This document shows positions 2,927 through 57,529 of a stretch of 64,000 nucleotides of DNA, piece after piece. The position numbers were made by a program, and so were the translations under genes. The DNA is from Streptomyces sp. NBC_01210 (lineage in GTDB: Bacteria; Actinomycetota; Actinomycetes; Streptomycetales; Streptomycetaceae): the NCBI RefSeq assembly GCF_036010325.1, contig NZ_CP108549.1:4774001-4838000 (forward strand), written 5' to 3'. The notes beneath the pieces were generated by a model that did no database searches, was not told the origin of the DNA, and saw only the letters and a program-made list of their open reading frames with translations. Each line of letters begins with the position of its first letter. Within the stretch, counting starts at the first letter, position 1.

Positions 2927-5900
2927 ATGACGACGCTGAGTGGTCGCGGTGCGGAGGCAATTCCCACGCCTGCCGGGCTTCCGCTGATCGGGAATCTCCG
3001 GGACGTCGCGCACCGGAACTTCATCGAGCACACGATCCGGCTGGTTCGTCAGTACGGGCCGATCTACCGGCTGGACACGCCGCTCGGTGAGCAGATCTTC
3101 GTCTCGGGGGCCGATCTCGTCGACGAGATCTGCGACGACGCGCGCTTCGACAAGCTGGTGACCGGCGGGCAGGCGCGGCTGCGGAGGTCCGCCGTCAACA
3201 ACGGGCTGTTCACCGCGGACACCGCCGACCCGATGTGGCAGCGGGCGCACAACATCCTGATGCCGCCGTTCGGCCTGAAGGCGATGCGCGACTACATGCC
3301 GATGATGCTGGACGTGGCCGGGCAGCTGTTGGACAAGTGGGCCCGGCTCAACCCGGACGACGAGGTCGACGTGTCGGCCGACATGACCCGCCTCACCCTG
3401 GACACTGTCGCGCTGTGTGGATTCGGCTATCGCTTCAACTCCTTCTACCGGGAAGCTCCGCACCCGTTCGTCCAGGCCATGACGCGAGCCCTGCTGGAGG
3501 CCCAGAAGCAGGCCGGGCTGCCCGCGGCCGTCAATCGGGTCCGCAAGCGCGCCCAGCGCCGGTACGAGCGGGACAACGCGTTCATGAGCGGGCTCGTCGA
3601 TCAGCTCATCCAGCGGCGGCGGGAGGCCGGGGACACCGAGACCAAGGACCTGCTCGGCTGCATGCTGGCCGGTGTGGACCGGCAGTCGGGCGAGCGGCTT
3701 CCGGACGAGAACATCCGGGCGCAGTGCATCACCTTCCTCATCGCCGGTCACGAGACGACCAGCGGTCTGCTCTCCTTCGTCACGTACTTCCTGCTCAAGC
3801 ACCCCGAGGTGGTCGAGCGCGCGCGTGCCGAGGCCGACGAGGTCCTCGGTACGGATCCGGGGGTCGCGCCGACGTACGAGCAGGTGCACCGGCTCACCTA
3901 CATCGCGCAGGTGCTGGACGAGTCGTTGCGGCTGTGGCCGACCGCGCCCGGCTTCACCCGCACCCCGCGCGAGGAGACGACCGTCGGCGGCCGCTACCGG
4001 GTCTCTCCCGGCACCCCGCTGATCGTCATCGCTCCCGCACTCCACCGGGACCGCGACATCTGGGGCCCGAACGCCGAGGAGTTCGACCCTGAGCACTTCA
4101 GCCCGGAGCGTCGGGCGCAGCTTCCGCCGAACGCCTTCAAACCCTTCGGCACCGGACAACGGGCCTGTATCGGAAGGCAGTTCGCGATGCAGGAGGCGCA
4201 GCTGGTGCTCGGCATGCTGCTGCAGCGCTTCGAACTGATTGACCACCTCGGCTACAAGCTGAAGATCAAACGGGCCCTCACCATCAAGCCGGACGGGCTG
4301 AAGGTGCAGGTCAGGCCACTCGCTGGACGGACGGCCGCCGTGCCTTCGCCGCGCGCCGTGGAGGCGGAACCGGCGAAGGCGCCGAAGCCCGAGGCCGCCG
4401 CCGTGCCCGCCGTGGAGGTGCACGGTACACCGCTGGCGGTGCTGTTCGGCTCCAACCTGGGCACCGCCGAAGAGATCGCGGGAGAGCTCGCACGGGAGGG
4501 AACGGAACGCGGCTTCGACGTCACGATCGGCCCGCTCGACGACCACCTCGGCGATCTGCCCCGCAAGGGCGCGACCATCGTCGTCACCGCCTCGTACAAC
4601 GGCACAGCGCCGGACAATGCCGCCCGGTTCTGCGGCTGGCTACAGGACCCGGCGACCCCGGCGGACGCCTGCTCCACCATGCGGTACACCGTCTTCGGCT
4701 GCGGACACACCGACTGGGCGGCTACCTACCAGACCGTCCCCAAGCTGGTCGACACCGAGCTGGAGGCACACGGCGCCACCCGCGTCCACCCGCGCGGCGA
4801 GGGAGACGCCAAGAGCGACTTCGACGCGCAGTACCGGGCATGGCACGCCGGGCTGTGGCCGGACCTCGCCGAGGCGCTGTCGCTGCCGGCCGCGGTCGGT
4901 CAGGCCGCCGCGCCCAGGCCCGGACTGGCGATCTCGACGGTCAACAGGCGCGAGACCAACCCGGTCGTCACCTCCTACCGTGCCCGTCCCGCTTTCGTAC
5001 GGGTCAACAGCGAGCTGCAGCACCACGACGGCGGGCGGCCGGAACGTTCCACCCGCCACCTGGAGATCGCCCTGCCCCAAGGGACGACCTACGAGGCGGG
5101 CGACCACCTCGGCGTGCTGCCGCGCAACCGGGTCGACGCGGTATGGCGCGTGTGCCGGCACTTCAAGCTGGACCTCGGCAACTACGTCACCATCGCGCCG
5201 GGCCCAGGGGTGCCCAGCCACCTGCCGACGGGCGAGGCCGTGCCGTTGATCGGCGTGCTCGCCAGCTGCGTCGAGCTGCAGGACGTGGCCACCCGCTCCG
5301 ACCTCGAGGCCATGGCCGCCTACGCCGACGACCCCAAGCAACGTGACGAACTGCTCACCCTCGCCGCCGACGACCCCGAAAGCCGCGAGCACTACCAGGA
5401 GCGGGTCTTCGCCCCGCGCCAGTCGGTGCTCGACCTGCTCGGTGAGTTCCCGGACTGCCATCTGCCGTTCGACACCTTCCTGGAGCTGCTGCCGCCACTG
5501 CGCCCGCGCTACTACTCGATCTCCTCCTCGCCCCTGGTCTCCCCGGACGTCTGCAGCATCACCACCGGCGTGCTGGAGGCCCCGGCCAGATCCGGCCACG
5601 GACTTTTCCACGGCGTGTGCTCCAGCCACCTGGCCCACAGCGAGCCCGACGACACAGTCTTCGCCTTCGTCCGCAAGCCCACGATCCCGTTCCGGCCCCC
5701 GGACAACCCCCACGTTCCGATGATCATGATCGGCTGCGGCACCGGTCTCGCACCCTTCCGCGGCTTCCTGCAGGAGCGGGCCACGCAGAAGGAACAGGGC
5801 GCGCCAGTCGCCCAGTCGCTGCTCTTCTTCGGCTGCCGCAACCCCGAACGGGACTTCCTCTACGAGGAGGAGCTGCGGCACTTCGAGCAGCTGGGGATCG

Positions 5901-6249: not shown

Positions 6250-7224
6250 TCATCCGCAGACCACGTCTCGCGGGGGCTTGCCGTCCAGGTATGCCGTGGT
6301 GTTCTCCATCGCGGCCCTGACGATCCGGGGCACCGTGTCGCGGGTGACGCCCGCGATGTGCGGGGTGAGCAGCACGTTGGGGGCTCGGAGCAGCCGAAGT
6401 TCCGGGCCCGGGGGCTCCGGGTCGAAGACGTCGAGGCCTGCCCCGGCGATCCGGCCGGCCTCCAGCGCGTCCGCGAGGGCCTCCTGGTCGACGATGGCGC
6501 CACGGGCAGTGTTGATCAGGAACGCGGTGGGCTTCAGCAGCGCCAGCCGGTCGGCGTCCAGCAGTTGCCGGGTTTCCTCGGTGAGCGGGACGTGCAGCGA
6601 CACCGCGTCCGAGCGCCGGAGCAGCTCCTCGAGCGGCACCCGGCGCGCGCCGAACCGCTCCGCCGCTTCGGCGTGCTCACTGCGTGCCGTGTACAGCACT
6701 TCCATGTCGAAAGCGGCGGCCCGACGGGCCACCTCCTGGGCAACCACCCCGAAGCCGACCAGGCCGAGAGTCTTTCCCGCGAGTCCGGTCAGCGACGGCT
6801 GCAGGCGGTGATTGGCCCAGTCTCCGGCGGCGAGCGCGGTATGGGCCGGGACGAGCTGCTTGGCGAGCGCGAGCAGGAGCGCGAAGGTGTGCTCGACGAC
6901 CTCCCGGTGCTCGGCGCCGGTGGAGCCGATGTTGCACACCGTCACGCCGCGTGCGCGGGCGGTGTCCAGGTCCACGTAGTCGAAGCCGTGGCTGGAGCAC
7001 TGGACGAACTCCAGCCACGGCGCGGCATGGATGTCCGCCCCGGTGACCGGTGCAAGGGCGGTGACCAGGACCCGGGCACGGGACAGCGCTTCGGGGTCCT
7101 CGTCGGTGGCCTCCACCAGCGTCACCTCGGCCCGGTCGGCGAAGGCGGCGGCGAAAGCGGCGCCGACCTGGCGGCCGCCGACATGCGGCGGTATGACGGC
7201 GAGGACGGTCTTGCGGTCGGTCAT
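6250..7224 (-). CDS. D-2-hydroxyacid dehydrogenase family protein
   Basis: A 324-residue NAD(P)-dependent oxidoreductase of the D-isomer-specific 2-hydroxyacid dehydrogenase family. The Rossmann loop is GFGVVAQ at 157-163 (third glycine replaced by alanine). The catalytic set is Arg241 in NTARGAIVDQ, Glu270 in DVFDPEPP and His289 in TPHIAG. These enzymes interconvert 2-oxo acids and D-2-hydroxyacids; the substrate cannot be deduced. The ATG at 7224 is preceded by AGGAG. It is the last gene of a minus-strand series that starts with the BVMO gene, although a 306-base gap with a gene relic separates it from the aldolase, so it may have its own promoter. Confidence 0.88.
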   Translation of the reverse strand: MTDRKTVLAVIPPHVGGRQVGAAFAAAFADRAEVTLVEATDEDPEALSRARVLVTALAPVTGADIHAAPWLEFVQCSSHGFDYVDLDTARARGVTVCNIGSTGAEHREVVEHTFALLLALAKQLVPAHTALAAGDWANHRLQPSLTGLAGKTLGLVGFGVVAQEVARRAAAFDMEVLYTARSEHAEAAERFGARRVPLEELLRRSDAVSLHVPLTEETRQLLDADRLALLKPTAFLINTARGAIVDQEALADALEAGRIAGAGLDVFDPEPPGPELRLLRAPNVLLTPHIAGVTRDTVPRIVRAAMENTTAYLDGKPPRDVVCG

Positions 7225-7384
7225 GGCTGGCTCCTACGAAGGGGGTGGGCTTGGTACGAGACTCGGCGGGCCGTCACCAGGGCTCTCCCCGGGCGCGGAC
7301 CAGGGCGCGTCAGGCGTGAGCTCGGCGGGCCGGGTACAAGCGGACAGGGCCAGGCTGAGGTCGAACTCGGCGAGCAGGCTGCGG

Positions 7385-7453
7385 GAAATCGCGCGGGCGC
7401 CAGGCCGGCAGCCAGGTGTCGAGGGTGACCGCGCGCGCCGTGCAGCCGGCGGC
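7385..7453 (-). pseudogene. Relic of a lactate-2-monooxygenase-like flavoenzyme
   Basis: In the 306-base gap between the aldolase stop and the hydroxyacid dehydrogenase start, the minus strand encodes AAGCTARAVTLDTWLPAWRP. This closely resembles the TLDTWQLGWRPRDL segment of the intact enzyme at 17237-18415. No start, continuous frame or catalytic histidine remains; flanking residues in other frames may also belong to it. The assignment rests on about 20 residues only. Confidence 0.4.
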
Positions 7454-7530
7454 CCTGGGCACGGGCGAGGGTCGGCCATCCGTGCATGTCGTTGTCGCCG
7501 ACGTATCGCGTGCGGGGCCGTCTCGCAAGC

Positions 7531-8367
7531 TCATTCGAACAGATCCGGGTCGGTCCGCGAGATCTGCTCGAAAAGGGGCTGGAACTGGAACCAGCCGACA
7601 AACTCGCCGCCGACCTGGCCATGGGTCAGCTTGGCGTTCTCATCCGTGATGCCGATGGTCGGGCCGGCTGCCTTGGCAGCAAGTTGCGCTTGAGCGGACC
7701 TTTCCATCGTGATGAACCACCACGCGGCGGAGTCGACGGAGGTTCCGACGGTGAGCAGGCCGTGGTTTCGCAGGATCGCCGCCTTGTGGGAGCCGAGAGC
7801 GTCGGCGATGCGCCTGCCCTCGGTGGGATCGTTCACCACGCCGGTGTAGTCGTCGAACAGATCGTGGTCCTGGTAGAAGGCGCAGGCATCTTGTGTGAGC
7901 GGCTCCAGATGCCGGCCCGTGGCCGACAGGGCCTTGCCGTACACCGAGTGGCTGTGTGCCGCGCCTATGACGTCGGGGCGGGCCTGGTGGACCGCGGAGT
8001 GGATCGCGAACGCCGCGCGGTTGACCCTGTGCCGCCCCTGGACGACCTCGCCGTCACCGTTGACCAGCAGGAGGTCGCTGACCCTGATGTGCTTGAAGGA
8101 GACACCGAGCGGATTGACCCAGAAGTAGTCGGGGTACTCGGGGTCGCGTGCGGTGATGTGTCCGGCGACGCCCTCCTCGAAGCCGAAGCGGCCGAACAGG
8201 CGCAGCGCTGCGGCCAGTCGCTCCTTGCGGTGGCGCCGCTCGGTGGCGACGTCGTCGAAGACCGGCGGCCGGGGGAAGATCAGCTCCTCTTCGGGGATGG
8301 GGGTCAGCCCGGCGGGCGGGAGCTGCTCGGCGGTGGGGTGCCCGGCGGGGGTGGTTGCGGCTGACAT
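7531..8367 (-). CDS. Class II aldolase/adducin family protein
   Basis: 278 residues with the class II aldolase fold. The metal-binding histidines are recognisable as AHSHSVYG (His138, His140) and NHGLL (His202). Members are zinc-dependent aldolases, epimerases or decarboxylases acting on hydroxylated carbon chains; longer members like this occur in oxidative degradation operons. I chose the ATG at 8367 because AAGGAG lies just upstream; the open frame extends to 8454 without good signals. It follows the FGE gene after about 100 bases, probably in the same transcript. The substrate is unknown. Confidence 0.85.
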   Translation of the reverse strand: MSAATTPAGHPTAEQLPPAGLTPIPEEELIFPRPPVFDDVATERRHRKERLAAALRLFGRFGFEEGVAGHITARDPEYPDYFWVNPLGVSFKHIRVSDLLLVNGDGEVVQGRHRVNRAAFAIHSAVHQARPDVIGAAHSHSVYGKALSATGRHLEPLTQDACAFYQDHDLFDDYTGVVNDPTEGRRIADALGSHKAAILRNHGLLTVGTSVDSAAWWFITMERSAQAQLAAKAAGPTIGITDENAKLTHGQVGGEFVGWFQFQPLFEQISRTDPDLFE

Positions 8368-50816: not shown

Positions 50817-51737
50817 ATGACCGCGTATGACGCCATCGTGCTCGCCGGAGGTGCCGCGAAGCGGCTGGGCGGGGCCGACAAGCCTGCGGTGAGCGTGGGT
50901 GGGCGGGCCCTGCTCGACCGTGTGCTCGGGGTGTGCCGCGACGCGGGGCGCACCGTTGTCGTCGGTGGACGCCGGGTCACCGTGCGGCCCGTGGTCTGGG
51001 CGCGCGAGGAGCCCCCGGGCGGTGGGCCGCTCGCCGCGCTGGACGCCGGCGTGCGGCAGATCGGGGCACCGGCCGTCCTGGTGCTCTCCGCCGATCTGCC
51101 GTTCCTGGGGGAGCGGACGGTGCGGCAGTTGATCGACGCCCTCGAGACGAGCGGGCGGGAGGCGGCCCTGCTCACCGATCCCGGCGGCCGTGACCAGCCC
51201 CTCGTAGCGGCGTACCGCACCGAACCGCTGCGACGTGAACTCGCGCTCCTCGCCACCGAGCACGGGAGTCTGGCCGGGCTGCCATTGCGTCTGCTGACGC
51301 GGGAATTGGACCTCGCCCGGATCGCCGCGGAGCCGCTCGCCTCCTTTGATTGCGACACCTGGGAGGACATCTCCGCAGCCCGGGCCCGTATCAGGGAGCA
51401 TGGGAACGTGCTGGACGAATGGATCACCGCAGTCAAGGACGAACTCGGCATCGAACTCGACGTCGACACCGGCGTCCTGCTCGACCTCGCCCGGGACGCC
51501 GCGCATGGCGTCGCGCGTCCCGCCGCACCGCTCACCACCTTCCTGGTGGGCTACGCAGCCGCCAGGGCGGGTGGCGGCCCGGATGCGGTCGCCCAGGCCG
51601 CCCGCAAGGCCGCCGCACTGGCCGCGCGCTGGGCCGACGAGGCCGATCAGGCCACCCCTGGCACCGCGGCCGATCCGGCCGCCGCCGGTGGGAAGCCCGA
51701 CAAACCCCCCAAGACCGACGAGGCCGACGCCGGATGA
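50817..51737 (+). CDS. mobA: MobA-like NTP transferase fused to a DUF6457 domain
   Basis: 306 residues. Residues 1-195 form a MobA-type nucleotidyltransferase: LAGGAAKRLGGADKP signature, VLVLSADLPFLGERTV metal region, GGRDQPLVAAYR. MobA attaches GMP to molybdopterin. After it comes a helical domain of about 75 residues (LDEWITAVKDELGIELDVDT and following), then a Pro/Lys-rich tail. The extra domain resembles the actinobacterial DUF6457; its role is unknown. It overlaps moeA by ATGA, which supports a molybdenum cofactor function. Confidence 0.85.
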   Translation: MTAYDAIVLAGGAAKRLGGADKPAVSVGGRALLDRVLGVCRDAGRTVVVGGRRVTVRPVVWAREEPPGGGPLAALDAGVRQIGAPAVLVLSADLPFLGERTVRQLIDALETSGREAALLTDPGGRDQPLVAAYRTEPLRRELALLATEHGSLAGLPLRLLTRELDLARIAAEPLASFDCDTWEDISAARARIREHGNVLDEWITAVKDELGIELDVDTGVLLDLARDAAHGVARPAAPLTTFLVGYAAARAGGGPDAVAQAARKAAALAARWADEADQATPGTAADPAAAGGKPDKPPKTDEADAG

Positions 51738-53107
51738 CCGGTCAGGACCACGAGGTGGACGCCGCCGACGGAACCGTGGACGAGCCCGACGACGACGGCG
51801 TCGAGGAGGCCCTCGCGCTCGTCGGCCGCCGGACCCGGCAGAAGTCGGCGCCCGTCCCCGGCATGACCCGGCACCGTGCCACTCCCTGGCCCGACGCCCG
51901 CGCTCTCGCCGCCCGCCTCGGACGGACCGCTCCGCCGCGCACCCGGCGCGTGCCTCTCGATCAGGCCCTCGGCCGGGTTCTCGCCGAGCCGCTCACCGCG
52001 CTCTGCGATCTGCCCCCCTTCGACACCTCCGCAATGGACGGCTGGGCCGTCGCGGGGCCCGGTCCATGGACGGTTCAGGGCGATGGCTCGATCCTCGCCG
52101 GGCACGCCGACGCTCCGCCGCTCCCCGACGGAGCGGCCGTACGGATCGCCACCGGCGCTCGTATTCCGCCCGAGGTCACCGCGGTGATCCGCACCGAGCA
52201 CTCCCGTACCGACACGGACAAGGGCCAGCTGTACGCCGAGCGCGAGGTGGTCCCCGGTCAGGACATCCGGCCGCGTGGACAGGAGTGCCGCTCCGGCGAC
52301 CAACTGCTGCCTGCCGCATCCCTGGTGACCCCGGCGGTACTCGGCCTCGCCGCGGCCGCCGGCTACGACGAGCTGCTCACGGTCCCCCGGCCCCGCGTCG
52401 AGGTCCTTGTTCTCGGCGATGAGCTCCTCATCTCCGGACTCCCCCACGCTGGCCTGATCCGCGATGCCCTGGGGCCGATGATCGGTCCCTGGCTGCGCGC
52501 TCTCGGCGTCGAGGTCATCGCCACGCGCCGCCTCGGTGACGACGCCGAAGCCCTCCATGAGGCCGTCACCACCTCCGATGCCGACCTCCTCCTGACCACC
52601 GGTGGCACGGCTGCGGGTCCGGTCGACCATGTCCACCCGGTGCTGCGGAAGGCGGGTGCGGAGCTCCTGGTCGACGGAGTCGCCGTACGCCCAGGCCATC
52701 CGATGCTGCTGGCCCGGCTCGCCCCCGACCCGCACCGGCCGGACGGATCCCGGGACAGGTATCTGGTGGGCCTGCCCGGCAATCCACTCGCTGCCGTCTC
52801 CGGGCTCCTCACCCTCGCCGAGCCGCTGTTGCGTGCGCTCGCGGCCCGGCCCGCCCCTGCCCCGTATCGCGCCCCCGTACGTGACGAGGTGCACGGGCAC
52901 CCGTACGACACCCGCCTTGTGCCCTTCGTCCACCGCGCCGACCAGCTGGTCCCGCTGCACTACAACGGACCGGCCATGCTGCGCGGTATCGCCGCCGCCG
53001 ATGGTCTTGCCGTCGTGCCGCCGGGCGGCGCGCGTGCCGGTGACGAGCTGGAGGTCCTTGATCTGCCCTGGGCGCCGGCGAACGCCCAGGATGGGTGTTT
53101 CACGTGA
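51734..53107 (+). CDS. moeA: Molybdopterin molybdenumtransferase MoeA
   Basis: 457 residues. An acidic N-terminal extension of about 60 residues precedes the MoeA core: DLPPFDTSAMDGWAV, VRIATGARIPPEVTAVIRTE, VLVLGDELLISG, LLLTTGGTAAGPVDHV, VRPGHPMLLARL and VGLPGNPLAAVSGLL. MoeA inserts molybdate into adenylylated molybdopterin. The stop codon (53105-53107) lies inside a perfect parS site, and the GTG of the next (now broken) gene overlaps it as GTGA. Confidence 0.92.
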   Translation: MTGQDHEVDAADGTVDEPDDDGVEEALALVGRRTRQKSAPVPGMTRHRATPWPDARALAARLGRTAPPRTRRVPLDQALGRVLAEPLTALCDLPPFDTSAMDGWAVAGPGPWTVQGDGSILAGHADAPPLPDGAAVRIATGARIPPEVTAVIRTEHSRTDTDKGQLYAEREVVPGQDIRPRGQECRSGDQLLPAASLVTPAVLGLAAAAGYDELLTVPRPRVEVLVLGDELLISGLPHAGLIRDALGPMIGPWLRALGVEVIATRRLGDDAEALHEAVTTSDADLLLTTGGTAAGPVDHVHPVLRKAGAELLVDGVAVRPGHPMLLARLAPDPHRPDGSRDRYLVGLPGNPLAAVSGLLTLAEPLLRALAARPAPAPYRAPVRDEVHGHPYDTRLVPFVHRADQLVPLHYNGPAMLRGIAAADGLAVVPPGGARAGDELEVLDLPWAPANAQDGCFT

Positions 53108-53110
53108 AAC
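53097..53110. other. Perfect parS site
   Basis: GTTTCACGTGAAAC is the exact 14-bp parS palindrome bound by ParB in Streptomyces and many bacteria. It covers the moeA stop codon and the start of the adjoining channel-gene fragment. ParB spreads from such sites, which cluster around oriC, to organise chromosome segregation. Confidence 0.9.
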
Positions 53111-53220
53111 TTCCCGGTCGTGACGCCATTGCCCGCGATGCCGACGAGCGCCTGGTCACCAGCCGGAAAATCCCCCGCCGTATCGTCGAGCGCCCGCTCC
53201 GCCAGGTCGCCAAGGGGTGA
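53104..53220 (+). pseudogene. N-terminal fragment of a split K+ channel gene
   Basis: A 38-codon frame, start-coupled to moeA (GTGA), begins KLPGRDAIARDADERLV and continues ERPLRQVAKG before TGA at 53218. It reads as the cytosolic N-terminus of an MthK-like K+ channel. One base appears lost at the stop: in the shifted frame the sequence continues VMLALGVLALD, as the first transmembrane helix should. Homology ends near 53250, shortly before the stop codon of the reverse-oriented channel gene. The matching C-terminal part is at 55854-56513. As it stands, only a short peptide can be made. Confidence 0.7.
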
Positions 53221-53269
53221 TGCTGGCACTGGGGGTGTTGGCGCTGGATGTGTCACAAGAAGTGCCTGG

Positions 53270-54376
53270 TCAGCGGTTCCACTTGGTACGGGTCACCGTG
53301 ATCAGCCGATCGCCGGGCCGGAGCGTCGCGGCGTCTGGTTGGTCGTAGCCCAGAATCTCGTTCCTGCGCACGACAGCGACAACGAGGTCCTTGCACTCGC
53401 GGGGTGACCGGCCCGTTTCTTCGTTGGTCACCGGCCGCTCTGACAGGTCAAGTCCGCTGCCATAGGTCATCAGCTCCTCCAACACCGTGCCCACGTAGGG
53501 CTTGCCAGTGGAGAGCCCGAGCAGCCGTCCGGCCGAACTGGAGCTGGTTACCACGGCATCCGCACCACTCTGCTTGATCAGCGGTACGTTCTCGTCCTCC
53601 CGGACAGCCGCGACGATGGCGGCTCGCCTGTTGAGCTGTCTCGCGGTGAGCGTGACCAAGGTGGCGGTGTCGTCCCGCTGGGGAGCGATGATCACTTGTG
53701 CGGCGCGCGGCAACTCTGCTTGCAGCAGTGTTTCGGAGCGGGTCGCGTCCCCATGGATGGCCACGAAGCCGTCACTGCTGGCGGCGTCCACCGCCTTCCG
53801 CTGAGGGTCGATGATGACGATCTTGTCTTTGGGGGTTCCCTGGCCCAGCAGCGTTGCGATGGCATGACGGCCCTTGGTGCCGTAGCCGACGACGACCACG
53901 TGGTCCTGGGTGCGGCCCTTCCAACGGTGAACACGAGCCTGCTGCCGCGTTCGTTCGGTGAGCACTTCGAGTGTGGTGCCCACCAAGATGATCAGGAAGA
54001 GCACACGCAACGGGGTGATGAGCAGGATGTTGGTCAGGCGTGCGCTGTCGCTGTGCGGAACGATGTCGCCGTATCCGGTGGTGGAGAGGGTGACCGTCGC
54101 GTAGTAAAAGGCGTCGAGGAGATCGACCGAGTTGTTGGCATTGTCGTGGTAGCCGTCGCGATCGACGTAGACGATAGCCACGGTCGCCAGCAGTACGCCC
54201 AGGGCCATGGTGAGGCGGCGCAGGACTTGCTGAAGTGGAGGCACCACGCTCAGAACCGGCATGACGACGGTGCGGGCAGCGTCGGCGTCGACGTGGTCAC
54301 CCGACCGGGTGCCGGACCAGAGGGACTGGAGAACCGAGAGTCTTCTCGTCTTGGTCGACTGCGTCTCGTCCTTCAT
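53270..54376 (-). CDS. Two-TM potassium channel with RCK (TrkA-N/TrkA-C) domain
   Basis: 368 residues. Transmembrane helix 1 is near 54-71, the pore loop has the selectivity filter TTGYGD (99-104), and helix 2 is near 113-137 (LLITPLRVLFLIILVGTTLE). An RCK domain then starts at VVVGYGTKGRHAIATLLGQG, with an NAD/nucleotide-binding glycine motif, and a TrkA-C part follows. It is a tetrameric K+ channel gated from the cytosol by ligands. It lies inverted between the two halves of a related, disrupted channel gene, which it closely resembles and may functionally replace. Confidence 0.92.
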   Translation of the reverse strand: MKDETQSTKTRRLSVLQSLWSGTRSGDHVDADAARTVVMPVLSVVPPLQQVLRRLTMALGVLLATVAIVYVDRDGYHDNANNSVDLLDAFYYATVTLSTTGYGDIVPHSDSARLTNILLITPLRVLFLIILVGTTLEVLTERTRQQARVHRWKGRTQDHVVVVGYGTKGRHAIATLLGQGTPKDKIVIIDPQRKAVDAASSDGFVAIHGDATRSETLLQAELPRAAQVIIAPQRDDTATLVTLTARQLNRRAAIVAAVREDENVPLIKQSGADAVVTSSSSAGRLLGLSTGKPYVGTVLEELMTYGSGLDLSERPVTNEETGRSPRECKDLVVAVVRRNEILGYDQPDAATLRPGDRLITVTRTKWNR

Positions 54377-54501
54377 GCCCGGCCCTCGCGCGCAGTGATC
54401 CGCTCATTCAGCATGCCGACCATGCTTCCGTACCGAACCGGCGAATGGTGTGCAGCGGGAGGCTTGATCTGGGCTCGCCACTGCATCGCACGGTTTCCCC
54501 A

Positions 54502-54766
54502 GCCGAGGTACGGCCGCTCTCGGTGCTCCAGGAAGTGCCGGATCCTGAGCCGCTCTGTGTGTGGTGCATGAGGCAAGTTGACTGCCGAGCACGCGTGCGG
54601 TGAAGCAGACGTTGAACTGACGGCGTACCTCGCCGTCCGTGTAGGCGATGACGTGGCGGTGGTCCGGTCGGCCCGCGGCGAAAGCGATGGGCTGTGAATC
54701 CCGCACGACAGGGTCTTCGGGAACATCGTCGACGGTGCGGCCGACGCCTCGGGTGCCGTACTCAGG
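54502..54766 (-). pseudogene. Nudix hydrolase remnant with internal deletion
   Basis: On the minus strand, PEYGTRGVGRTVDDVPEDPV and HVIAYTDGEVRRQFNVCFTA run in one frame to about 54575. From 54576 the sequence continues in another frame with HTERLRIRHFLEHRERPYLG, the C-terminus of the same kind of Nudix protein. The stretch between, including the substrate-side strands, is missing, and no start codon or Nudix box remains. It lies between the lipoprotein and channel genes inside the inserted segment. The bases 54377-54501 hold nothing else recognisable. Confidence 0.6.
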
Positions 54767-54799
54767 TTCCGGTCTCGGCCATGGCTGCGGGGGCTGGCA

Positions 54800-55318
54800 T
54801 CAGTACCGCAATGCGTTGCGGACCTCGGCGGTCACCGTGCTGTTCAGGTCCCGGTTACTCCGGGCGGTGGCGTGGGCCGTGCCGCCCGCAGCGACCTGGG
54901 GGACCTCGAGGACGACCACATCGACCAGGTTTCCTGACTGGTCTTTGTAATTGACCACGATGGTGTAGCGCCTCGGCTTCGAGTCGTGGTTGGCGACGTT
55001 CACCGGGACCTCCGCCCGGCCGTTGGAGCCGGTCGCGATGCTGCCGAGGGTGACGTCCGCCTTGGCGTTCAATCCGCCCTTCACCTTTGCCAGCGCAGCC
55101 GACGCAGCCGCCTCGGCGGAAGCGACCGCAGAGGCCGCCGCCGAAGCTGCCGCAGTTCTGGCCGCGGTGGCAAGGGCGGACGCCTTCGACCTCGCGGCAG
55201 AGGCCGCCGCCGACGCGGGGGAACTTGGAGACTCGTTCGACGAACAGCCGGTCAGTCCGGCCAAGCTGAGCATGACGGCCACCCAAGCGGCAGTGCATCG
55301 GTTGACCTGGCGTTCCAT
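54800..55318 (-). CDS. Small lipoprotein with alanine-rich helix and FxLYD-like domain
   Basis: 172 residues. A signal peptide ends in the lipobox LTGC, so the protein is probably lipid-anchored on the outside of the membrane. Residues about 35-80 are a low-complexity Ala/Ser helix with regularly spaced charges. The C-terminal part (about 90-172) is beta-rich (VPVNVANHDSKPRRYTIVVN) and resembles FxLYD-type domains. GGGAG precedes the ATG at 55318; the frame is open further upstream. Function unknown. Confidence 0.8.
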   Translation of the reverse strand: MERQVNRCTAAWVAVMLSLAGLTGCSSNESPSSPASAAASAARSKASALATAARTAAASAAASAVASAEAAASAALAKVKGGLNAKADVTLGSIATGSNGRAEVPVNVANHDSKPRRYTIVVNYKDQSGNLVDVVVLEVPQVAAGGTAHATARSNRDLNSTVTAEVRNALRY

Positions 55319-55853
55319 GGCTTCTCCCGACTCGACGGCACTTTCCCGTCCAGCGTCGGCTGCCCCGGCCCGCCGCACCAGCCACGCGCGGCACCCGGGT
55401 GACGTCGACAGTCAGTCGACAGGATCGCCGTCAGTAACGGCCCCTGCCGAGTGAGGCCCGTACCGCCCCAGCGTGGCCTTCCGCCGGGGCGGCCTCCTCT
55501 TGATGCTTGGCGATCACCATCATCGAAACTGCCTTGTCCGTCTCCGGACCCGCGATCTTCGTTCCGCCGCACCCGGCGGGGACACTGCCGGTGCTCGGGC
55601 AGGTGTGGGAGAAGTGCCCTCCGGCTTGTTGCGGCTCTTCGCAGTTTTCGTCACCTGCAAGGGCGCTCCGCACCTTGGCCTGTGTGGTGTCGGTACCGTC
55701 GTTCCCATCCGTACCGGGGCCATCGCCGGGCTCGAAGGAAAGCCGGACGAGACCGGCCCGGTTCTGACCTTCAAGATCGCCTCAACGTGCCCGCTTCACG
55801 AGATCATCGGGCATGCTCTTAGGCTACTTTCGGAACACCGCTGGAGGCTTCGC
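55319..55853. other. 535-base stretch without a convincing gene, at the right end of the inserted segment
   Basis: Several short frames are open on both strands but none has a good ribosome site plus recognisable sequence. A minus-strand frame at 55431-55673 (containing GGHFSHTCPSTGSVPAGCGG) reads somewhat like a protein but has no known match. Homology with the channel gene resumes at about 55835. Promoters for the lipoprotein gene are expected near 55320-55400. Confidence 0.4.
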
Positions 55854-56513
55854 TTGCGTGAGCACACGGTCATCGTCGGCTTCGGCACCAAAGGGCGGTC
55901 GGCGATTCAGACGCTGACCGCGACAGGTCTGAAGAAGGCCCAGATCATCGTCGTCGACCCCAGCGCCAAGGTGATCGAGGCCGCCAATGCCGAGGGCTTT
56001 ATCGGGGTGATCGGCGATGCGACCCGCAGCGAAGTGCTGATCCGCGCCGAGGTTCAGAAGGCCCGCCAGATCGTCATCGCGACACAGCGCGACGACACCG
56101 CGGTTCTGGTCGCGCTGACCGCGCGCCAGCTCAACCGGGGCGCGAAGATCGTCGCCGCGGTCCGCGAGGAGGAGAACGCGCCGTTGCTGCGCCAGTCCGG
56201 CGCGGATGCGGTGATCACCAGCGCGAGCGCGGCCGGTCGGCTGCTGGGCCTGTCCGTGCTCAGCCCCAGCGCGGGCACGGTGATGGAGGACCTGATCCAG
56301 CAGGGCAGCGGCCTCGACCTCATCGAACGGCCGGTGATAAAGGCCGAGGTGGGTCGCAGTGTGCGGGAGACCGACGATCTGGTGGTGAGCGTGCTGCGCG
56401 GGCACCGGCTGATCGGCTACGACGACCCGGCGGCGAGTCCGCTGCAGCTGACGGATCGCTTGATCACGATCGTGCGTGCGTCGAAGGTCCAACCCCTCAA
56501 CCCGTCTGAGTAG
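55854..56513 (+). CDS. RCK (TrkA-N/TrkA-C) domain protein: C-terminal part of the split K+ channel
   Basis: About 219 residues beginning at LREHTVIVGFGTKGRSAIQT, an NAD-binding RCK domain, followed by TRSEVLIRAEVQKARQIVIA and a TrkA-C-like end (ETDDLVVSVLRGHRLIGYDD). No transmembrane helix or pore is present. In a related full-length channel this part follows helix 2. A GGAGG at 55843-55847 lies 6 bases before an in-frame TTG at 55854, so a free RCK protein could be made, comparable to KtrA/TrkA subunits. The frame is open upstream to 55473, but that part looks unrelated. Confidence 0.7.
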   Translation: MREHTVIVGFGTKGRSAIQTLTATGLKKAQIIVVDPSAKVIEAANAEGFIGVIGDATRSEVLIRAEVQKARQIVIATQRDDTAVLVALTARQLNRGAKIVAAVREEENAPLLRQSGADAVITSASAAGRLLGLSVLSPSAGTVMEDLIQQGSGLDLIERPVIKAEVGRSVRETDDLVVSVLRGHRLIGYDDPAASPLQLTDRLITIVRASKVQPLNPSE

Positions 56514-56539: not shown

Positions 56540-57529
56540 ATGCATGCGATCACGATTCCCGAACCTGGCGGTCCCGAGGCGCTTGTGTGGGCCGAGGTGC
56601 CCGATCCCGTACCCGGCGAGGGAGAAGTCCTCGTCGAGGTCGTCGCGAGCGCCGTCAACCGTGCCGATCTGCTGCAGCGGCAGGGCTTCTACGACCCGCC
56701 GCCCGGCTCGTCCCCGTACCCCGGCCTCGAGTGCTCGGGCCGGATCTCGGAGCTCGGGCCGGGTGTCTCGGGGTGGGCCGTGGGCGACGAGGTGTGTGCC
56801 TTGCTGGCAGGCGGCGGTTACGCGGAGAAGGTCGCCGTGCCGGCGGGGCAGCTGTTGCCGGTGCCGGAGGGGCTGGATCTTGTCACGGCCGCGGCGCTGC
56901 CCGAAGTGACGGCCACGGTGTGGTCGAACGTGTTCATGATCGCGCACTTGCGGCCGGGTGAGACGCTGCTGATCCATGGTGGTGCGAGCGGTATCGGCAC
57001 GATGGCGATCCAGCTCGCGAAGGCGGTGGGCGCGCGGGTGGCGGTCACCGCGGGCGGGCCCGAGAAGCTGGCGCGCTGTGCGGAGTTGGGAGCGGACATC
57101 CTGATCGACTACCGCGAGCAGGACTTCGTGGAGGAGCTGCGGAAGGCGACGGACGGGGCGGGCGCGGACGTCATCCTCGACATCGTCGGCGCGAAGTATC
57201 TGGACCGGAATGTGAAGGCGCTGGCGGTCAACGGCCGCCTTGCCGTGATCGGCCTGCAGGGTGGCGTCAAGGGCGAGCTGAACCTGGCGATGCTGCTCGG
57301 CAAGAGGGCCGCCATCGCGGCGACGTCGCTGCGGGGCCGCCCGCTCGGTGAGAAGGCGTCGATCATGGCGGCTGTACGGGAGCATGTGTGGCCGCTGATC
57401 GAGGGGGGCCTGGTCCATCCGGTGGTGGACCGCATGGTTCCGCTGCCGGACGCGGCGGAGGCGCATCGGGTGCTGGAGTCGGGCGCGAACGTCGGCAAGG
57501 TGCTGCTGGTGGCGCCGACGGCGGGCTGA
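56540..57529 (+). CDS. NAD(P)H:quinone oxidoreductase (zeta-crystallin-like MDR)
   Basis: 329 residues of the medium-chain dehydrogenase/reductase superfamily without zinc ligands. The N-terminal GroES-like domain includes SAVNRADLLQRQGFYDPPPG; the nucleotide motif is HGGASGIGTMAIQLAK. It matches the TIGR-type quinone oxidoreductase PIG3 subgroup, which reduces quinones with NADPH. It starts 26 bases after the RCK gene, so they may be co-transcribed, and ends in an imperfect hairpin. Confidence 0.9.
   Translation: MHAITIPEPGGPEALVWAEVPDPVPGEGEVLVEVVASAVNRADLLQRQGFYDPPPGSSPYPGLECSGRISELGPGVSGWAVGDEVCALLAGGGYAEKVAVPAGQLLPVPEGLDLVTAAALPEVTATVWSNVFMIAHLRPGETLLIHGGASGIGTMAIQLAKAVGARVAVTAGGPEKLARCAELGADILIDYREQDFVEELRKATDGAGADVILDIVGAKYLDRNVKALAVNGRLAVIGLQGGVKGELNLAMLLGKRAAIAATSLRGRPLGEKASIMAAVREHVWPLIEGGLVHPVVDRMVPLPDAAEAHRVLESGANVGKVLLVAPTAG

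Follow-up and report, generated by a model that had tools for sequence, protein, structure and literature searches.

The K+ channel gene that lies 3′ of moeA in the window, the 64,000-nucleotide stretch of Streptomyces DNA analysed here, is broken in the linker between its pore and its RCK domain. Comparison with related loci shows that an AICE encoding a large serine integrase integrates in this linker and that the window holds an eroded copy of it. We consider it likely that the mobile element converted a dual-product channel gene into a divergent two-gene channel, the two products and their co-assembly being predicted from the sequence. With somewhat less confidence, we lean towards a broader reading, in which a conjugative element repeatedly inserted at an internal ribosome-binding site, one gene for two subunits would have become two divergent genes, and the redundant internal start would then have been lost. 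The features of the locus are as follows.

51734..53107, + strand: moeA (ORF), the upstream conserved neighbour, which adjoins the channel in relatives too
53104..53220, + strand: N-terminal remnant of the split forward K+ channel, 38 residues, GTG start (alignment to the intact channel)
53221..53246 (end approximate), + strand: out-of-frame remnant of transmembrane helix 1 (DNA alignment to G285)
53246..53247, no strand: deletion junction, with the pore and left attachment site gone (blastn blocks stop and restart at G285 positions 3424 and 3701)
53270..54376, − strand: inverted full-length 2TM-RCK K+ channel, 368 residues (Pfam)
54500..54742, − strand: remains of the Nudix hydrolase gene of the element (tblastn with the intact G285 Nudix protein)
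54800..55378, − strand: lipoprotein-like ORF, Ala/Ser-rich, with a lipobox-like start (by eye)
55488..55814, − strand: pieces of the large serine integrase of the AICE, covering residues 381-424, 359-381 and 1-47 (tblastn)
55837..55847, + strand: core of attR, the right attachment junction, common to G183, G373, G392, G449 and G285
55854..56513, + strand: free RCK gene, likely extent, TTG start, 219 residues, the C-terminal half of the split channel (TrkA_N; start signal; dN/dS)
56540..57529, + strand: quinone-oxidoreductase-like gene, the downstream conserved neighbour, found 3′ of the channel or RCK in relatives

The initial annotation had described a channel-type N-terminus coupled to moeA at 53104-53220 and an RCK part resuming at about 55835, and both were recovered. 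The former aligns to residues 1-41 of an intact channel at 80%, with its GTG at 53104 overlapped by the moeA stop codon (moeA ends at 53107), and RCK homology restarts at about 55838 (TrkA_N, E=1.3e-26). Alignment of moeA loci from relatives, the check that had been suggested, supported the split: in 34 of 36 loci from named genomes, queried with the inverted channel, the moeA-linked channel is uninterrupted and in forward orientation. It is a single gene of about 362-382 residues (for example, in L007), with a 2TM pore joined to RCK, as confirmed by Pfam and by matches to MthK. The remaining two loci are those of S. alanosinicus, where the channel is broken, and S. tateyamensis, where an inverted-type channel occurs in forward orientation. 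An RCK match at E≤1e-88 is present in 359 of the 392 genomes of the genus sample. These comparisons show that the ancestral gene 3′ of moeA was one 2TM-RCK K+ channel and confirm that, in the window, its pore half is truly split from its RCK half.

A separate RCK gene in other genomes had been named as an argument against the split, and such genes do recur: at least 32 of the 392 sampled genus genomes, the window included, pair a free RCK gene with an adjacent inverted channel, a lower bound because free-RCK loci were taken from high-scoring matches among those listed. A one-off event is rejected on this count; the split stands despite the recurrence, given the attL and attR remnants and the intact relatives. 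Plain inversion of the same gene was likewise rejected, since the inverted channel is of a distinct family with a tree position apart from the forward channels; in the window genome, it and the free RCK are 58% identical over RCK. In a further locus, L228 (G457, 7024-8116), the forward-channel match breaks past residue 204, with about 30 extra bases, and then resumes.

Within the insert, the full-length homologous channel annotated in reverse is indeed found at 53270-54376 (−), with Pfam matches to Ion_trans_2 (7.3e-15) and TrkA_N (4.6e-25), and the broken Nudix gene is represented by its remains at 54500-54742; in G285, the Nudix gene is intact (Pfam NUDIX). The supposed lipoprotein gene corresponds to the ORF at 54800-55378, which has a lipobox-like start by eye, no Pfam family above the cut-off and no match at E≤1e-3 among the loci compared. 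The proposed join points, at about 53250 and 55835, were refined, the RCK side falling at about 55838 with attR at 55837-55847 and the left side now being a deletion junction at 53246/53247. The relative closest to the insert is G285, with 91% DNA identity across the first 1.2 kb; it has, in order, a frame-shifted pore part, the inverted channel, about 5.4 kb and the RCK part. Relative to G285, the window is missing 276 bp by blastn, a deletion that took the left junction and the bulk of the pore; the greater part of the element is also gone. Overlooked at first were the integrase fragments at 55488-55814 (−) and attR at 55837-55847.

In S. alanosinicus (L099, L175; genome G392), the linker is broken at the same site by about 11.3 kb encoding a GntR/UTRA regulator, an FtsK/SpoIIIE protein, RepSA (7.6e-141) and a large serine integrase. 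The same element occurs in G183 (83% over 8.3 kb and 80% over 2.8 kb), together with the inverted channel, and in G373, without it; G449 carries at this site an integrase (82%) and a rep fragment, again without the inverted channel. The integrase is complete in G183, G373, G392 and G449 and reduced to fragments in the window, the intact homologue of these scraps having Recombinase, Resolvase and zinc-ribbon domains. A replication initiator and an FtsK-type transfer protein are present in G392, G183 and G373; the window stretch searched gave no rep or tra match. By its gene content, the window copy is an AICE remnant and no working AICE.

The left junction reads ...AACCGCTGGAG followed, across the join, by TCAACG... 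in G183, G373, G392, G449 and G285 and is degraded in G191; the left-junction motif in five loci is CGCTGGAG followed by TCAACG. The right junction reads ...AAACCGCTGGAGG... in G183 and G373, with variants in G392, G449, G285, G191, G090, G221 and the window. Both attL and attR, with a common core, occur in G183, G373, G392, G449 and G285 and, degraded, in G191, and the window retains the right one only. Serine-integrase attachment sites are usually symmetric, and the common core would, in the predicted circle, be flanked by AAACCG and CGGTTT, which fits a serine integrase. Random or IS-type insertion was rejected, being contradicted by the integrase remnants and the common junctions; transposases were sought through Pfam and PHROGs scans of the listed ORFs only. 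The insertion had been called an unusual non-IS event. It is no IS-type insertion: the event is site-specific integration of an AICE, and the pairing of a free RCK gene with an inverted channel is not unique to the window. No match to the integrase at E≤1e-40 was found among plasmids and phages. Integrases 56-61% identical occur in G137 (L187), G382 (L188) and G064 (L189) beside RepSA and Tra genes, with no moeA or channel match in the stretch retrieved.

The integration core overlaps a Shine-Dalgarno sequence in the linker. In all 119 intact forward-type genes, the RCK domain opens with a TTG (111) or GTG (8) codon. The linker before it comprises TGG, a next codon of AGG (87 genes), AGA (27), AAG (4) or AGT (1), and two further codons, with the Shine-Dalgarno sequence six bases 5′ of the start codon. 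TGGAGG or TGGAGA thus precedes the RCK-opening codon in 114 of 119 genes; of the other five, those with AAG have the sequence AAGG and the one with AGT has GGAG. The 119 are distinct forward-type sequences, including four that come from a different family of the order and one that is a second copy in G127, with loci identical around the RCK start counted once and matches near a locus end or without the GFG/GYG-KG motif left out; moeA linkage was seen for part of them only. Arginine at the Shine-Dalgarno codon is encoded by AGG or AGA in 114 of 114 cases, against 5.6% of arginines elsewhere. At the start position, leucine is always TTG (111 of 111, against 3.8% of leucine codons elsewhere) and valine always GTG (8 of 8, against 40.5% of valine codons elsewhere). 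By synonymous-codon information, the two signal codons rank first and second of 275 columns, at 4.09 and 3.69 bits, with the third at 1.34. In another family of the order, six loci have AGG with GTG (four) or ATG (two). This codon usage argues strongly that, by way of an internal ribosome-binding site and TTG/GTG start in the linker, the intact gene would make both a full channel and a free RCK protein.

Since the right junction keeps the Shine-Dalgarno sequence and the start, the free RCK protein would still be translatable after integration. In the window, a GGAGG ribosome-binding site at 55843-55847 lies inside the attR core, and the RCK gene likely runs from the TTG at 55854 to 56513. A long ORF from a GTG at 55473 was rejected as the RCK start: its upstream portion is antisense to the integrase scraps, and free RCK genes differ widely in upstream open length, which ranges from 5 to 364 codons. 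The internal start signal is kept in 39 of 39 free RCK genes (TTG 32, GTG 7) among the matches listed. Between the window and G285, its nearest split relative, dN/dS of the free RCK is 0.044/0.495 = 0.088, and this value, together with the kept start signal, argues that the RCK half in the window is not debris. Median dN/dS is 0.24 for free RCK genes (712 pairs), 0.15 for forward channels (6908) and 0.33 for inverted channels (872), the pairs being non-independent; by these ratios, free RCK genes are under purifying selection. A truncated pore half accompanies a free RCK in G373, G392 and G449 (L186, L175, L222), a possible natural test of a pore plus a separate RCK.

At E≤1e-15, the window genome has two RCK matches, the inverted channel and the free RCK, and the former is its sole full-length channel of this 2TM-RCK family. 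The early suggestion that the inserted relative replaced the broken gene in function is therefore plausible, and such replacement would not be obligatory, because the element carriers G373, G392 and G449 have the free RCK only, without the inverted channel. In 37 of 37 loci among the matches listed, the inverted channel and the free RCK gene point away from each other as a divergent pair, and in 23 they lie less than 200 bp apart. The internal start signal is absent from the inverted channel of the window (TGGAAGGGCCGCACC; codon context). Among the matches listed, 1 of the 37 inverted channels that have a free RCK gene as neighbour (G090) retains the Shine-Dalgarno sequence together with the start, and 8 of the 37 still carry the ATG; where a free RCK gene is lacking, both signals persist in 9 of 10, the exception being G370 with ATG only. 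Each of these ten genomes has a single RCK of this family. A Fisher test of free RCK gene against internal-start loss gave p 7e-8 with kinship ignored; corrected for kinship, the test has two independent pairs only and is not significant, so the association is suggestive and unproven. The inverted-channel tree implies five changes of the start codon, at least four of them forced by supported branches (startless group), and two of the Shine-Dalgarno codon; all startless inverted channels have a free RCK gene. G090 combines a free RCK gene with an intact internal start, counter to a reading in which RCK is supplied in trans. Also counter to it, the inverted channel of G370 (L118), without a free RCK, lacks the Shine-Dalgarno codon, has its ATG left and is nested among free-RCK-bearing channels. 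Against plasmids, the inverted channel matched 25 records, mostly distant channels from other genera.

At sequence level, an AICE integrated at the pore-RCK linker; its copy in the window has eroded, with most of the pore lost later. We propose that the channel gene was a dual-product one, that integration fell on its internal start signal, and that the right junction, by retaining the ribosome-binding site and start, left the free RCK to be translated from its own gene. A full-length homologue, inverted near the left end of the element, may have taken over the pore function, the retained RCK gene possibly supplying free RCK subunits in trans to its gating ring. The inverted channel would subsequently have lost its own internal start, yielding a divergent two-gene channel. 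In trees built with 45 of the 119 intact forward genes, drawn at random, free RCK genes do not group together as a single clade (7-8 changes, AU p=0.0019), pointing to several splits or to fewer splits plus transfer. The 23 compact pairs make up precisely one supported group in the RCK tree, the pattern expected from a single old event. The channel of L066 (JOFO01000007.1, titled Microtetraspora glauca) falls among Streptomyces sequences in the tree, and the record is perhaps mislabelled.

Where the inverted channel lies inside the element's junctions, it likely arrived with the element. It lies between both junctions in G183, G285 and G191 and inside what remains of them in G090 and the window, all of which tells against its being pre-existing, separately acquired, or part of a channel/RCK block spread by homologous recombination via the conserved flanks. 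Such an origin outside the AICE is favoured by the element without an inverted channel in G373, G392 and G449, by the absence of any visible pore or element remnant in the 23 compact pairs and by the ten genomes with an inverted channel and no free RCK gene. Yet the free RCK genes are not monophyletic (7 changes, AU p=0.0019), and several free-RCK groups fall among different intact forward channels, as expected from repeated local splits. We regard the non-AICE origin as a tentative alternative, on the improbable side, and prefer arrival with the element.

The role assigned to the free RCK protein may also be questioned. RCK proteins of Ktr and Trk systems function as separate subunits, and the free RCK could similarly act alone or with another transporter, independently of the inverted channel; indeed, in G373, G392 and G449 it occurs without a full-length channel of this 2TM-RCK family. 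Its divergent linkage to the inverted channel in 37 of 37 loci (among the matches listed) and the decayed internal start of the partner channel speak against independence, which we judge unlikely, and we retain supply in trans as our working model. Further from the data, in our view, is a role for the linker's TGGAGG-N6-TTG as a ribosome pause site that aids membrane insertion of the pore and starts nothing. The position of the motif, immediately 3′ of the membrane part, would suit such a role, and intragenic Shine-Dalgarno-like sequences may slow ribosomes. A pause, however, needs no start codon, yet leucine is TTG in 111 of 111 genes and valine GTG in 8 of 8; the same signal is used by 39 of 39 free RCK ORFs, which are separate genes (among the matches listed), and it has been lost from inverted channels, which remain membrane proteins. 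We hold a pause site to be very improbable, and an internal start remains our preferred reading of the linker.

The need of bacterial RCK channels for an additional, free RCK subunit is contested, MthK (PMC9440719) standing against Kch (as cited in PMC2920069). The start signal is preserved in rare synonymous codons in 119 intact genes and left to decay in lineages with a separate RCK, which makes the question testable in common laboratory Streptomyces. If our reading is true, element-driven gene fission would demonstrate the importance of the free RCK subunit in bacteria. More generally, an intragenic translation signal could serve as a landing site for a mobile element and thereby set the point at which a gene is split.

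Parts of this picture have precedents. In the available text of Ghinet et al. 2011 (PMC3218068), 19 of 144 AICEs use serine recombinases and some lie in protein-coding genes; ours resembles those AICEs in its RepSA, FtsK-type Tra and serine integrase and differs in its site, a K+-channel linker, and in that the window copy is a remnant only. The words 'potassium' and 'TrkA' are absent from the main text of that paper. An internal RCK start is known in MthK and doubted for E. coli Kch, for which removal of a putative internal start reportedly had no effect (cited in the portion of PMC2920069 available). Among the titles and abstract openings of the open-access matches listed, we saw neither a K+-channel-linker integration site nor an internal start in this Streptomyces channel; nor did that literature describe the coincidence of the two sites, the conservation at codon level in Streptomyces or the arrangement as two genes. 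Vnz_17705 of Streptomyces venezuelae, a putative 2TM channel with RCK_N, 24% identical to MthK (PMC10117811), is probably the intact form of the gene split in the window, as matched by description alone; the available portion of that paper makes no mention of an internal product. Among the closest parallels is MthK itself, the Ca2+-gated K+ channel of Methanothermobacter, in which four of eight RCK domains are made separately from an internal Met107 in the corresponding linker (PMC9440719, available portion). The Streptomyces channels share its 2TM-RCK architecture and match it across both the pore and the RCK (E values of about 1e-17 to 1e-15), and the 119 intact genes carry a strong sequence signature for an MthK-like internal start that would give a free RCK. 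Their start is TTG or GTG, aligned seven residues nearer the RCK than Met107 (placed by hand count), and, unlike in MthK, the free subunit in the window has a gene of its own, split off by a mobile element.
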